Shown piece after piece: positions 49,367-56,207 of a DNA stretch of 64,000 bases (position 1 is the stretch's first letter; each line of letters starts with the position of its first letter). Location: the NCBI RefSeq assembly GCF_024808815.1, contig NZ_JANUCS010000001.1:124001-188000 (forward strand), in the 5' to 3' direction. A program made the position numbers and the translations under genes. Under the pieces are notes generated by a model that had not been told where the DNA came from, ran no database searches, and worked only from the letters and a program-made list of their open reading frames with translations. This DNA is from Methanosalsum natronophilum (GTDB lineage: Archaea; Halobacteriota; Methanosarcinia; Methanosarcinales; Methanosarcinaceae).

Positions 49367-50092
49367 TTAAGATTCTTCAAAATCATCAAAAAAATCAGAT
49401 TTAGTACTATGAGAAATAGATGAGCGTTGCTTTAAGTATTCTTTAAGCATTAAAGGAAATGTTTTGGCCGGAACGAATCGAACACCTAGTTCTTCAGCCC
49501 ATTTTTGAATTCCAAAATCATTAGCAACTACTGCAGCATCAATTTCTTTTGCCAATAATAATACATCAATATCTGGTGCACTGTCGAGAATGCCATACCT
49601 CAATGCTGATCGATACTTATTTCTAAACTTACCAATTGTTTTCCCAATAACTTCTCTTTCAATATTATCCTCAATATCTTTTTTAGTTCTTGCAGAAGAT
49701 GTTAGAAATAAACACTCAGTTGCAGCCGACCAAATAGCATCTTCAGCAACACCCATTCCCTTATTAATACGAGCTCGCATAAAAGCAACATATTCGTGGA
49801 ATATACGTGCTGGTATCTTTACTTCATACCTATCAGGTGTTTTCTTTACAAGCCATGTATCAATCTTTGCGACAACTTCAGTCTCACATTCATTGTTTCT
49901 AGCAAAGTCTTGTAACTCCTCATAAACAGAAGGGAAGGGTATATAGCAGCTGATGCCTAACTTTAGCCTTGATTCAGCAATCAAGTCAAGAATTCCTTTA
50001 ATCCCATCACATAGCTCAGAGTGCCCAATTGATTCTCTAACCTGTTGATCTGTAAGTGCAGTAGTATCAAGTACAAAACGTTGTCTTAACAT
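49367..50092 (-). CDS. HARP-type PIN-domain protein (protein-only RNase P homologue; RNA ligase partner family)
   Basis: This 241-residue PIN-domain protein starts [10 protein letters not shown], with the first active-site Asp. It contains the [17 protein letters not shown] block with further acidic residues, [27 protein letters not shown], and [16 protein letters not shown]. These align by eye with Aquifex aeolicus Aq_880, the founding HARP, whose equivalent blocks read similarly. HARP proteins process tRNA 5' ends without RNA; in archaea with RNA-based RNase P their role seems secondary. Older annotation calls the family RNA ligase partner. The C-terminal 25 residues are an extra polar tail. 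Confidence 0.88.
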
Positions 50093-50288: not shown

Positions 50289-52532
50289 TTAATCTTCTTT
50301 CTGTACCCTTTCATCGTCCTCATCATCTTCATCGTCTTCTGCATTTGCATCTATGGCATAATTAGCAAAAGATGCAATGCTTTGCTCATAAATATCGTTT
50401 GGTTCTGAAGATGAAACGGGTTTAACCCTTGACATTGCTTTTTTGAAGTGTTTCTTTTTAATCCTGATTTTATCTAAGTTATCTGTAATCTCTTTCTTGC
50501 TCATACCTGGTTTAATATATTCTCGAAGTGCAAGCATAGTAGCTTCTCTGCAAATAGATTCTATATCTGCTCCTACATAGCCATCCGTCATCTCTGCAAG
50601 TTCAAATGCTTTAATCTCATCTGAGAGTGGTTTTCCTTCAAGATGTATCGTGAATATCTTCTCTCTGCTTTCCTTATCAGGAGTTTTCACATAAATCAAC
50701 CTATCAAACCTTCCAGGCCTTAATAGTGCTGAATCTACAATATCAGGTCGATTCGTGGCAGCGATTATAACTACATCTTTCAACTCTTCAACACCATCTA
50801 GTTCTGTAAGAATTTGGCTTACAACTCTTTCACTTGTATGTGAGTCAGAACTACTACCTCTTCTGGGTGCAATCGAGTCAATCTCATCAAAGAAAACAAC
50901 AGTTGGTGCTGATTGTTTTGCTTTTCTAAAGGTTTCCCTGACAGCACGTTCCGATTCACCTACATACTTGCTTAAGAGTTCAGGACCTTTGATACTAATA
51001 AAGTTAGCTTCACTTTCACTTGCAACTGCTTTTGCTAGTAAAGTCTTACCAGTACCTGGTGGACCAAATAACATTATCCCTCTTGGTGGTTTAGTATTCA
51101 CGGTCTCAAATATCTCAGGGTATTTTAATGGCCATTCCACCGCTTCTCTCAGATCTTGTTTTGCTTTTTCGAGGCCACCTATGTCATTCCAATCAACATG
51201 TGGAACTTCCACGAATACTTCGCGCATAGCTGATGGCTCAATATTCTTTAAAGCCTCTTCAAAATCTGTCTTTTGAACTTCAAGTTTGTCCATTACTTCT
51301 TGTGGAATATCCTCATCAATCTTGATATCCGGTAATAATCTTCTAAGAGCATGCATGGCAGCTTCTTTTGCAAGTGAAGATAAATCAGCACCTACAAAAC
51401 CATGGGTTATATCTGCAATATCTCCAAGGTTCAAGTCTTTTTCAAGAGGCATTCCTCTGGTATGGACATATAGTATTTGTAGACGCCCGTTTCTATCAGG
51501 AATACCAATCTCAATCTCCCTATCAAATCTTCCTCCTCTTCTTAAAGCTTCATCAATTGAGTTTGGTCGGTTTGTAGCAGCAATTACAATTACTTCTCCT
51601 CGTGTTTTTAGTCCATCCATTAAAGATAATAACTGTGCAACAACCCTTCTTTCAACTTCTCCAGTAACATCCTCTCTTTTTGGTGCAATCGAATCAATTT
51701 CATCTATAAAAATAATAGAAGGTGCTTCTTTTTCTGCTTCCTCGAAAACTTCTCGAAGTTTTTGCTCACTTTCACCATAATATTTAGACATTATTTCTGG
51801 ACCACTGATTGAAATGAAATTGGCATCTGTTTCGGAAGCTACTGCTTTTGCGATCATTGTTTTACCGGTACCTGGTGGTCCGTACAGCAGTACACCTTTT
51901 GGAGGTTCAATTCCGAGTTTTTGGAACAGTTCGGGGTGTCTTAGTGGCAATTCTATCATTTCTCGAACAAGTCCAATCTCTCGTTTCAACCCACCAATAT
52001 CTTCATAAGATATCTGACCAGTCTTTACGACTTCTTCAGCAGGTTTCTCCTTTAATACAATCTCCGTGTTCCTTGTAACAATAACTGGGCCTGAAGGGGT
52101 CGTAGATGATACCACAAAAGTCAATGGGTTATTTACTGCCTCTATACGAATACGTTGACCACGAGATGTGGGTCGACCTTCTAATATCCTGTGTATATAA
52201 CGTGCACCTCCAACAATCCTAATAGGTTGTAATGGTGCAAGTGTTACTTTACTAGCTTCTTTAGCATCAACTTTTTTTATTTGCACTTTATCATCAATAC
52301 CAGCACGTACATTATTACGGATATTACCATCTATTCGAATAATGTATTTACCTACATCATCTAGATATCCTGGCATTATTCTGGCATAGCTTTTTTCTTT
52401 ACCAGTAATTTCAATAACATCACCGCTCATTAAGCCTAGTCTTTGCATCAACTCAGGGTCAATCTTTGCAATGCCCCTACCAACATCACGGTGATAAGCT
52501 TCAGCAACTCTTACATATGTTTCTTCTGCCAT
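50289..52532 (-). CDS. Cdc48/VCP-type AAA ATPase (VAT)
   Basis: The 747-residue unfoldase has an N domain (residues 1-185, [20 protein letters not shown]) and two AAA modules. D1 has [15 protein letters not shown] and [15 protein letters not shown]2 has [15 protein letters not shown] and [15 protein letters not shown] with arginine fingers. It unfolds proteins for the proteasome or extracts them from complexes. The extreme C-terminus is strongly acidic ([17 protein letters not shown]). ATG 52532 has AAGGTGA upstream and follows the regulator stop by one base, so the two genes form one operon. Confidence 0.96.
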
Positions 52533-52533
52533 A

Positions 52534-53196
52534 TTATTCACCTTTTTCACTTATTTTCCAATATTTAGTTCCATTTATTATCTGAAATTCAATCAAATTT
52601 CTATCATAAAGAGCAGATAAGTATACCTTTACTATATCCGGCTCTATTCCAAGATTATACGAGATTGTTGCTAGTTCACGCGGGCCTATTAAAAGCTCGT
52701 ATAATATCTTGGACTCTGTATGATTTTGAGTGATTTCTTGAATTATTTGCCCGCATTCATTCATTATTTTAATTAAATCATCTCTGAGTTCATTTTTTCT
52801 TGACACAAGTTTATTGATCTCTAACCTCAAGTTCTGTATTTGTTTGTTTTTTTCAATTAGTGATTCAGATGTCTGATCAACTGAGTTCTTAGAGATCAGA
52901 CCATTATCTTTTCTCGAAGAAAATGACCTAATTGATGTGACATATGAATATGGAGAAAGTGTTATCTCAAGGTAGAGGTTATGACTTATGCTAAAATACT
53001 TTCTTCTGTTTGAATCAAAATGACATTCAATAAGACCAACCTCTTCCAGCAAACTGAGGTGATTGATTATTGCCTTTGGCCCAACCTCTAATTTTCTCGA
53101 TATTTCACTTACATAATATGGACGATCGGACAGTATCTGCAATATCTTTCTCCTGTTCTCATTCCCAAGTATATCGAGAATTATTGATGAATCCAT
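52534..53196 (-). CDS. Double winged-helix ArsR-like regulator, operon partner of cdc48
   Basis: This 220-residue protein has an N-terminal winged helix (residues 1-75: [46 protein letters not shown]). A coiled coil spans about residues 112-150, and a second winged helix about 160-215 ([23 protein letters not shown]). The first domain resembles archaeal ArsR-type proteins. The stop is one base before the cdc48 ATG. Two palindromes in its own promoter suggest autoregulation. GGGGAGAAGG precedes the start. No metal-binding cysteines are seen, so the signal is unknown. Confidence 0.82.
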
Positions 53197-53239
53197 CCTT
53201 CTCCCCTATTCTTCACATTAGTCATTTTAATTAATCAGA

Positions 53240-53259
53240 AACTATAATACCTTATAGTT
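53240..53259. promoter_or_regulatory. Palindrome in the leader of the regulator-cdc48 operon
   Basis: AACTATAA (53240-53247) and TTATAGTT (53252-53259) form a perfect inverted repeat around TACC. It directly abuts a second palindrome and lies just after the predicted transcription start. It could be an operator for the winged-helix protein encoded downstream. Confidence 0.5.
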
Positions 53260-53276
53260 ACTAACTTTAAGTTAGT
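53260..53276. promoter_or_regulatory. Palindrome overlapping the start site of the regulator-cdc48 operon
   Basis: ACTAACTT (53260-53267) and AAGTTAGT (53269-53276) form a perfect palindrome with a one-base centre. It sits between the TATA-like box (53285-53292) and the first palindrome, at the position where a bound repressor would block RNA polymerase. Confidence 0.55.
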
Positions 53277-53284
53277 CTTAATAA

Positions 53285-53292
53285 TATATAAA
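53285..53292 (-). promoter_or_regulatory. TATA box of the regulator-cdc48 operon
   Basis: The minus strand reads TTTATATA here, preceded by GAAATG as a BRE-like element. A start 24-27 bases downstream falls at about 53262, giving a leader of about 65 bases that contains the first palindrome. Confidence 0.5.
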
Positions 53293-53354
53293 CATTTCTC
53301 TCGAATACATGGTTTATAAACAAATTGCCTAACCCATTATTTCGTTATACTAAA

Positions 53355-56207
53355 TTAATTAGAAAACGTGAATTTGTAGCAGGTTCCTTTCGAATTATCT
53401 AATTCTATTGTCCCACTCAACTGTGCTACAAGTAAATTTATTATCTTAAAGCCAAGTGAGTTTATCAAGTTAAAATCAATATCATTTGGCATCCCAATCC
53501 CATTATCACTTACCACCAATTCATAAGCATCATCAATTCTTTTAAATGAGACTGAAATTATGCCTGTTTTACATCCTTTGAATGCGTGCTTATAAGAGTT
53601 TGTAACACACTCATTTATAATTAATCCCAGTGGAATAGTCATATCCATATCAAAATACGCTTTTTCAACTTCTAGTTCAGTTTTTATAGTTGTAGAATCA
53701 AAATAATACAACTGTGATATATAATTCACTAAACTGGAAATATAATCAGATATCTCAATGCTACCCACTATATCAGTTCTATAAAGTTTCTCATGGGCTA
53801 TTGACAATGACCGAATTCTATTTTGACTGTCTTTTAATGCACCTTCAACATCTGGGTTTTGTTTGAAAAGCTTAGATTGCATGTTCAGTAAACTTATTAT
53901 TACCTGCAAGTTGTTTTTGACCCTATGATGAATTTCATGCACTATCAATTGATTTCTTTCTAATTCTTCCTTTTTCTTTCTGTCAGATATATCAGATGTA
54001 ATACCTTCCAACCTTATGGGAATAGAATTACTATCATATATTAGACGTGTTTTGTTACGAGTCCAGCATATGCTGCCATCGGGTCTAATGATACGATAAT
54101 CTTCATTATAGTACCCATGTTCCAGTAGTTTTTTTGATGCATCAAGATAAATATCATAATCTTCTGCATAAACCATTTCTACCAAACAGTTAGGATTTGC
54201 TAATATGTGATCAAGTGAACATCCATAAACTTTCTCAGCTGATGGACTGATGTATATAGGTTTTAGGTCCGGCCATGAGAATGACCAAATTACGTCATCT
54301 ATACTGCTAAGAATTGTAATGAATTTATTCTCACTTTCTTGTAACTTTTTATGCGTATCTTTTAGCTCAGTTATATCATGTTGTACTATAAAATGACCTT
54401 TGGTTCTTCCCTCATCATCATAAATACACACATATTCGCCTTCAACCCATATGCCTGTGCCATCTTTTCTCATTTCAAATTTCTCACCATAATAATGGCC
54501 ATTATCAAAGGTTTTTCTAAGTAGTGATTTCATGTCATCTTTATTCCCATTGAAAATACTGAGGGGTGTTTTTCCAATAAAGTCGTTTTTGGTTGAAAGA
54601 TATTGATCAAGAAAAGCTTGGTTGACCATCTTTATCTTTTCATGAGATATAGCATATTCTAACATATCCTCTTTATCTATTAAATCATTCCACGTAATGG
54701 GCACATCAAATTCCATCAAAAGAAATCCCGTCAATGATTGTGTAAAGAAATCTTTTAGTTGTTTATGGCTTTCTTTAAGCGCTTTTTCTGTACGCCTCTG
54801 TGAGGTTATGTCACGTCTCAAAATAACAATTCCTAAAGGAATATCTTCCTGAGAGGTCAGTGGTGCCTTTCGAGTATCAAAAAGAACATTCTTGCCATTA
54901 GGATAAGTTAACCACTCTTCGTTTTTCGTAGATTTAAGTCTTTTTTGTGAAAGAATATCTCTTGTTCTGAGTTTATTAGCTATTTCTTGAGGAAATAAAT
55001 CATAGTCTGTTTTCCCAATTATCTGTTCATACGATTTACCTACTAAATTACAAAATTCTGAATTACAGGCTAAGTAAACTCCATATTTATCTTTCACTGA
55101 AATTGTATCCGATATTGAGTTTAAAACTCCTGTTAAAAGGTTTACTTTTTCATTTAGGTTTTCTCTTTCCATTCTAAAATCTGTGATGTCAGTGATGATT
55201 CCATCAATGTACAAAATTTTACCATTTGAATCATAGATTCCTTCTGCATTCTCATGTATCCACCTGATAAATCCATCTTTTGTTACTATTCGATATTCTA
55301 GCTGATAAGGTAAGTGCCTACTGATTTTATTAGATATTTCAGTGAACAATTTAGATCGATCTTTTTCAAAGACTATACTTGAATATGACCTTACTTTATT
55401 ATTTATGAAATCTAATGACTTGTACCCAGAAATATCATAGATTTTATCACTCAAATATACCATTGTCCAATTTTCATCAAACTCACACCTAAAAATTACT
55501 CCAGGCACATTATGTACCAGGTGTGAGAGATGTTCTTTCCTTTTTTCCATTGACTCTGTTACAATTAAGTGATCAATGGGTTTCTCAGGTGCACTAATTA
55601 TAGATGAAATTTCACTTTCATTATCTTCAAGTAACGTGTTTTTATTAGTCTGTAACAATGCAAAGTCTTCATCATTAATGGCTTCCTTAACTTCAACTCT
55701 CTTGACATCAGCACCTCTTTTTAGATCTGGAGTATTTGTAGCTAGTTCAAGACGTTTAAATGAGGGCAAAATGAAGTCATTTATATTTTCGATAAATACT
55801 GCTTTATCATCTGTGGTACTATTAGCTTGATACAGATCGGTTTCAAGTACTGAGAAAAAAATAGTAATGTGTCTTTTTTTCATTTTTGATGGTAACACTA
55901 CAGCATTGTACCACATTTTTAACTTACTAGATAAAAAATTAAACTTTATTCCAGTTGAATTTTTTAAACCATTGTTTAATTCAGAGGTATATTTGTTATA
56001 AAAAGTTGGAGATACTTCACTTAATTTTTTATCTAAAATATTCGCATCTTCAATTCCAAGGATTTCTTTTACCGTGGCATCCATATCAATAATCTTATAA
56101 TCTCTCGAATTACCTACGTCAAGTGAAATCAAACTACAGTATCCATTAGTGCAAGAAAGATTCTCTTTGCAATAGTTATCTGTGAGACCATAACTACCCC
56201 TAGTCAT
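53355..56207 (-). CDS. Soluble multi-PAS sensor histidine kinase (HisKA_2 type)
   Basis: This 950-residue protein has no membrane helix. A Cys-containing N-terminal PAS-like region (1-110) is followed by about four recognisable PAS/PAC units: near 230-340 (NVPGVIFRCEFDENW), 355-465 (SISDTISVKDKYGVYLA), 490-625 and 630-745 (SSIDDVIWSFSWPD). The kinase core is HisKA_2, with His in VHEIHHRVKNNLQVIISLLN, and a HATPase with NECVTNSYKHAFKG and DNGIGMPNDID. This type is abundant in methanogens. No response regulator is adjacent. A perfect 12-pair palindrome lies 78 bases upstream of its start. Confidence 0.88.
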   Translation of the reverse strand: MTRGSYGLTDNYCKENLSCTNGYCSLISLDVGNSRDYKIIDMDATVKEILGIEDANILDKKLSEVSPTFYNKYTSELNNGLKNSTGIKFNFLSSKLKMWYNAVVLPSKMKKRHITIFFSVLETDLYQANSTTDDKAVFIENINDFILPSFKRLELATNTPDLKRGADVKRVEVKEAINDEDFALLQTNKNTLLEDNESEISSIISAPEKPIDHLIVTESMEKRKEHLSHLVHNVPGVIFRCEFDENWTMVYLSDKIYDISGYKSLDFINNKVRSYSSIVFEKDRSKLFTEISNKISRHLPYQLEYRIVTKDGFIRWIHENAEGIYDSNGKILYIDGIITDITDFRMERENLNEKVNLLTGVLNSISDTISVKDKYGVYLACNSEFCNLVGKSYEQIIGKTDYDLFPQEIANKLRTRDILSQKRLKSTKNEEWLTYPNGKNVLFDTRKAPLTSQEDIPLGIVILRRDITSQRRTEKALKESHKQLKDFFTQSLTGFLLMEFDVPITWNDLIDKEDMLEYAISHEKIKMVNQAFLDQYLSTKNDFIGKTPLSIFNGNKDDMKSLLRKTFDNGHYYGEKFEMRKDGTGIWVEGEYVCIYDDEGRTKGHFIVQHDITELKDTHKKLQESENKFITILSSIDDVIWSFSWPDLKPIYISPSAEKVYGCSLDHILANPNCLVEMVYAEDYDIYLDASKKLLEHGYYNEDYRIIRPDGSICWTRNKTRLIYDSNSIPIRLEGITSDISDRKKKEELERNQLIVHEIHHRVKNNLQVIISLLNMQSKLFKQNPDVEGALKDSQNRIRSLSIAHEKLYRTDIVGSIEISDYISSLVNYISQLYYFDSTTIKTELEVEKAYFDMDMTIPLGLIINECVTNSYKHAFKGCKTGIISVSFKRIDDAYELVVSDNGIGMPNDIDFNLINSLGFKIINLLVAQLSGTIELDNSKGTCYKFTFSN

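Follow-up and report, generated by a model that had tools for sequence, protein, structure and literature searches.

An HSR1-type operator in the promoter of the regulator-cdc48 operon of Methanosalsum natronophilum and its conservation in related archaea

Organization of the regulator-cdc48 locus

The DNA analysed here (the window) is a stretch of 64,000 nucleotides from Methanosalsum natronophilum, and all coordinates without a locus label are positions in it. The operon consists of two genes on the minus strand. The first (52534–53196) encodes a regulator of 220 aa, a winged-helix protein placed in the HSR1/Phr family by Pfam, NCBIfam, PDB and Foldseek matches, and the second (50289–52532) is cdc48, which encodes an AAA+ unfoldase (NCBIfam CDC48, TIGR01243, 1071.7 bits). 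The regulator stop lies one base from the cdc48 start, an ATG at 52532, which confirms on the sequence what the original prediction had stated; an alternative in-frame GTG at 52550 would overlap. Directly upstream of the operon and on the same strand is a gene for a PAS-rich histidine kinase (HisKA_2/HATPase; 53355–56207, minus strand), and directly downstream of cdc48, also on the same strand, is a gene for a PIN_5 domain protein (TIGR03875 RNA ligase partner; 49367–50092, minus strand).

The spacer between the histidine kinase gene and the regulator gene is 158 bp long (53197–53354) and holds two perfect palindromes. An 8-4-8 repeat is located at 53240–53259 (plus-strand letters AACTATAA-TACC-TTATAGTT) and an 8-1-8 repeat at 53260–53276 (plus-strand letters ACTAACTT-T-AAGTTAGT). 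Both sequence and scan agree with the original prediction that they are perfect and abut at 53259/53260, and that they lie between the TATA box of the operon (TTTATATA; 53285–53292, minus strand) and the coding start, over the inferred transcription start. The 8-1-8 palindrome contains CTAAC-N5-GTTAG (53261–53275), an exact match to the HSR1 motif given in PMC9133787 and conserved in orthologous promoters. This unit sits close behind the TATA box, with 18 bp from the start of the box to its TAAC, and overlaps the inferred transcription start. A second, degenerate unit, TAAC-TATAA-GGTA (53248–53260, minus strand), is found exactly 14 bp downstream of the first; 7 of its 8 positions match TAAC-N5-GTTA, and its TAAC half completes a conserved GTTAGTAAC.

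The 158-bp spacer was shuffled with its dinucleotides kept, and perfect inverted repeats (arm of at least 8, spacer of 0–10) were counted; at least one was present in 7.5% of the shuffles and two in 0.3%. In the whole window there are 24 such repeats, compared with 13–29 in shuffles, so they are no commoner than chance. The palindrome pair is locally unusual, and the main weight rests on conservation, which is strong for the 8-1-8 palindrome and hardly present for the 8-4-8 palindrome.

The regulator protein

Judged by its sequence, the first gene product is an orthologue within the HSR1/Phr family, with an N-terminal ArsR-type winged helix (Pfam HTH_5, 1.1e-18) and a long helix homologous to Phr. 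The NCBIfam model Phr_regulator matches residues 4–154 (3e-26) at 92 bits, whereas the cut-off for Phr is 320 bits; there is no equivalog-level NCBIfam match, and a score under this cut-off is expected of a relative of Phr that is not Phr itself. The best PDB match by sequence is 2p4w, Phr of Pyrococcus furiosus (9.7e-21), which is also the best fold match by Foldseek.

The AlphaFold model supports the two-winged-helix description of the original prediction, placing the winged helices at residues 1–80 and 159–215 and a 50-residue linker helix at 106–155, though at a pTM of 0.49 the orientation of the domains is unreliable and their relative placement is of low confidence. Nearly all columns that are invariant among 25 regulator orthologues lie within residues 1–82, including positions of the recognition-helix region near K41, A42, H46 and L47, while L165 is the sole invariant residue in the C-terminal part. 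Because the invariant columns concentrate in this way, the DNA sequence is most likely read by the N-terminal winged helix.

Conservation of the operator and its loss with the regulator

HSR1 of Archaeoglobus fulgidus autoregulates via CTAAC-N5-GTTAG, and its operon includes hsp20 (PMC9133787, a review). The same motif lies, without a mismatch, upstream of the regulator's own gene in the window. We searched 146 distinct promoters of orthologues from Methanosarcinales, ANME-2, Methanoperedens, Methanothrix, Methanocellales, Archaeoglobi and haloarchaea (the last two labels are partly inferred). These promoters are non-independent samples, yet the sequence around the operator diverges freely among them. 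Exact TAAC-N5-GTTA occurs within 450 bp upstream in 122 of them, compared with about 1.5 expected from base-shuffled sequences, and the strict form CTAAC-N5-GTTAG in 75; promoters without the exact unit are mostly those of haloarchaea or contain near-misses. A clear TATA box is present in 102 promoters; TAAC follows its start at 18 bp in 73 of these and at 17 bp in 13.

This promoter holds the only copy of the extended perfect operator in the 2.03-Mb genome of the window. The other perfect CTAAC-N5-GTTAG (L034) is inside a coding sequence and was rejected, as were two near-arrays (L153 and L154), also inside coding sequences; a histidine kinase similar to the one upstream of the operon adjoins the chance motif in L034. 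When 3 mismatches were allowed in this genome, control patterns were commoner than the array, and weak genome-wide matches were therefore left out.

Many genera of the same order have no regulator orthologue (best matches near 1e-5), and an intact TAAC-N5-GTTA unit is present in the 500 bp upstream of cdc48 in none of 28 same-order genomes without the regulator. The pairing of regulator and operator in this lineage is predicted from sequence, and CTAAC-N5-GTTAG might in principle be bound by a protein other than the operon's own regulator, with the neighbourhood being incidental. However, the site tracks the regulator gene across lineages and disappears from before cdc48 along with it, and the A. 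fulgidus regulator binds this very motif (PMC9133787), which makes another binding protein highly improbable. Family membership of the regulator, identity, position and conservation of the operator, its co-loss with the regulator, and the operon partners are thus established.

As to these partners, the gene following the regulator is cdc48 in 108 of 147 loci, as in the window, and hsp20 joins it in relatives. For example, Methanoperedens (ANME-2d, L085) has the gene order regulator-hsp20-cdc48, in which the HSP20-like gene was identified from its translation. In Methanosarcina (L274, L275, L277 and L278), a second extended operator, CTAAC-TANNT-GTTAGTAAC, is located about 380 nt upstream of hsp20 (Pfam HSP20, 5.9e-20 in L274). 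In the window genome hsp20 is unlinked to the regulator operon, and no operator was found in its hsp20 promoters.

The Methanosarcina operator before the regulator gene was missed with 200 bp of upstream sequence and found with 700 bp, behind a leader of 180–420 nt. Since the operator stands at this distance from the regulator start in the loci of this group (L006, L012, L036 and others), their regulator transcripts would carry unusually long leaders. The leader of about 380 nt before Methanosarcina hsp20 (L274:2034–2412; also L275, L277 and L278) contains long conserved blocks, such as CTGCGAACAGACTGAAGGTGAACCTGT, and is possibly structured; an Rfam search of related leaders including this one gave no match.

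Close homologues of haloarchaeal type (e.g. L171, L174 and L178) have neither a TAAC-N5-GTTA operator nor an adjoining cdc48, so the family as a whole shares neither the operator nor the target. The locus L039:396–1532 (minus strand) encodes a 378-aa homologue of the regulator that carries a long acidic insert rich in Gly, Asp and Glu, and no operator unit lies upstream of it. The contig L058, labelled as a Deltaproteobacteria MAG, carries a Methanosarcinaceae-type regulator and is probably mis-binned.

Status of the 8-4-8 palindrome

Conservation in relatives, which the original prediction had named as a test for both palindromes, was found for the 8-1-8 but not for the 8-4-8. By inspection, 8 of 8 arm pairs of the 8-4-8 palindrome match in the window, 6 of 8 in the sister species L004 and 4 of 8 in the sister species L055. 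The promoters of Methanosarcina, ANME and Archaeoglobi contain nothing comparable, though the flanking CTAAC-N5-GTTAGTAAC is kept there. In the window genome, every further copy has at least 2 mismatches, and those with exactly 2 number 9, versus 8 for the control. The idea of two different conserved sites is thus not borne out. The boundary at 53259/53260 cuts through the conserved GTTAGTAAC, and because this element straddles it, two different-looking palindromes appeared to touch. We conclude that the 8-4-8 palindrome is mostly a fortuitous local symmetry in AT-rich sequence, overlapping the degenerate second unit.

It could instead be a second, independent operator, bound by another regulator or by the C-terminal winged helix of this one. 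The perfection of its 8-bp arms, the rarity of two perfect repeats in the spacer shuffles (only 0.3%) and the sister species L004, where 6 of 8 arm pairs remain and both bases of one pair have changed (T-A to C-G, by inspection), are in favour of such a site. However, with only 4 of 8 pairs left in L055, none of it in Methanosarcina, ANME and Archaeoglobi promoters, no copy elsewhere in the genome closer than 2 mismatches and no excess over the control at 2, and the invariant residues of the regulator almost all in its N-terminal winged helix, a second operator is unlikely. Nor is there support for the suggestion that two proteins, or two DNA-binding domains of one protein, occupy the differing half-sites, since the half-site AACTATAA is not conserved.

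The same letters in the 5' leader of the transcript could form a hairpin with an 8-bp stem and the loop GGUA (−6.8 kcal/mol, z −2.9), which might act as an RNA thermometer or as an element of translation or mRNA stability. However, the corresponding stretch gives −4.5 kcal/mol in L004 and 0 in L055, the hairpin is absent outside the genus, and it lies at a large distance from the start codon, where it would cover no ribosome-binding site. It was rejected as it is not kept between sister species, and a role of this kind is very unlikely.

Operator units in a 14-bp register

Every offset from the first unit was scored across the orthologue promoters, and the conserved element proved to be CTAAC-N5-GTTAG-TAAC, followed by further TAAC-N5-GTTA units in a 14-bp register. 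Further units (at least 7 of 8 matches) are found at +14 in 51% of the promoters, at +28 in 31%, at +42 in 16% and at +56 in 10%, compared with 0–3% at all other offsets. ANME-2 relatives contain up to seven consecutive units (at least 6 of 8 matches each). The window has one full and one degenerate unit, and its sister species carry TAAC-N5-GATA at the position of the second unit.

It is conceivable, and we put it forward tentatively, that the HSR1 operator is a phased array with exact steps of 14 bp (about 1.33 helical turns), where dimers of the regulator would bind cooperatively side by side, and that the number and quality of the units (1–7, depending on lineage) would set the switch. Such a 14-bp array was not found described in the literature searched; its novelty is not established, because the original HSR1 paper (Rohlin 2005) was outside that search.

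Comparison with known heat-shock systems

The orthologous promoter in L220, a genome which we take to be that of A. fulgidus DSM 4304, has CTAACATAAAGTTAGTAAC after TTTATATAC, with cdc48 as the next gene, and the window has CTAACTTAAAGTTAGTAAC after TTTATATA; CTAACATAAAGTTAGTAAC and CTAACTTAAAGTTAGTAAC differ in one base. The operon in the window is like the A. fulgidus HSR1 operon (HSR1, hsp20, cdc48) in its orthologous regulator with cdc48 next to it (as in L220), in its motif and the place of that motif behind the TATA box, and in presumed autoregulation. However, A. fulgidus is a hyperthermophile, while the window belongs to a Methanosalsum methanogen, whose operon is without hsp20, and A. 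fulgidus (L220: GTTAGTAACCGACATTAAG) keeps just an extra TAAC half-site where the window has its degenerate second unit, 14 bp beyond the first. From A. fulgidus the operon, the motif and the regulator family are already known; what is new here is their occurrence in a Methanosalsum methanogen.

Phr of P. furiosus (2p4w) has the same fold and is in the same family, since Phr and HSR1 both belong to arCOG01684 (PMC5852551). It is an autoregulated heat-shock repressor acting over the start site, as is predicted for the regulator in the window. However, the Phr site spans 29 bp and contains TTTA, TGGTAA and AAAA blocks (PMC9133787) instead of CTAAC-N5-GTTAG, and the C-terminal parts of the two proteins are unalignable by sequence beyond residue 142.

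A putative heat-shock circuit

We return to the reading of the 8-1-8 palindrome as an HSR1-type operator. Very probably, 53261–53275 is the autoregulatory operator of a heat-shock repressor of HSR1/Phr type, accompanied by a weaker unit 14 bp on and released by heat, and the 8-4-8 palindrome is mainly coincidental. A regulator dimer would bind CTAAC-N5-GTTAG over the expected transcription start, 18 bp from the TATA box, with the weaker unit further downstream, and at normal temperature the bound regulator would keep the transcription machinery off the promoter, a mode of repression that has been put forward for HSR1. Heat or unfolded protein would free the operator, so that regulator and Cdc48 would be made together, and the rising level of the regulator would then shut the operon again. 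Direct binding, repression and heat as the signal are most likely by analogy with A. fulgidus and Pyrococcus. The rise of a family member and Cdc48 at supra-optimal temperature in Methanonatronarchaeum (PMC5852551) fits the proposed release by heat.

The original prediction of an autoregulated regulator-cdc48 unit gains from this, and with the regulator's own operator over the expected start, autoregulation is very probable. Its "unknown signal" is superseded: the membership of the regulator in the Phr/HSR1 heat-shock family and the published HSR1 motif in the 8-1-8 palindrome both point to heat or protein-folding stress as the most likely signal.

For methanogens and anaerobic methane oxidisers, a regulator with an unspecified signal thus turns into a heat-shock circuit that can be tested. 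The A. fulgidus HSR1 operator is seen to be conserved in much of its phylum and to be absent upstream of cdc48 in genomes without the regulator. The steps of 14 bp supply a concrete operator grammar, with units that can be counted, for one of a handful of archaeal heat-shock regulators known so far. If the array reading is true, the number and quality of its units would determine how sharply, or at what threshold, the Cdc48 heat-shock switch responds, and in Methanosalsum natronophilum, which has one strong and one degenerate unit, the cooperativity of this switch would be weak.
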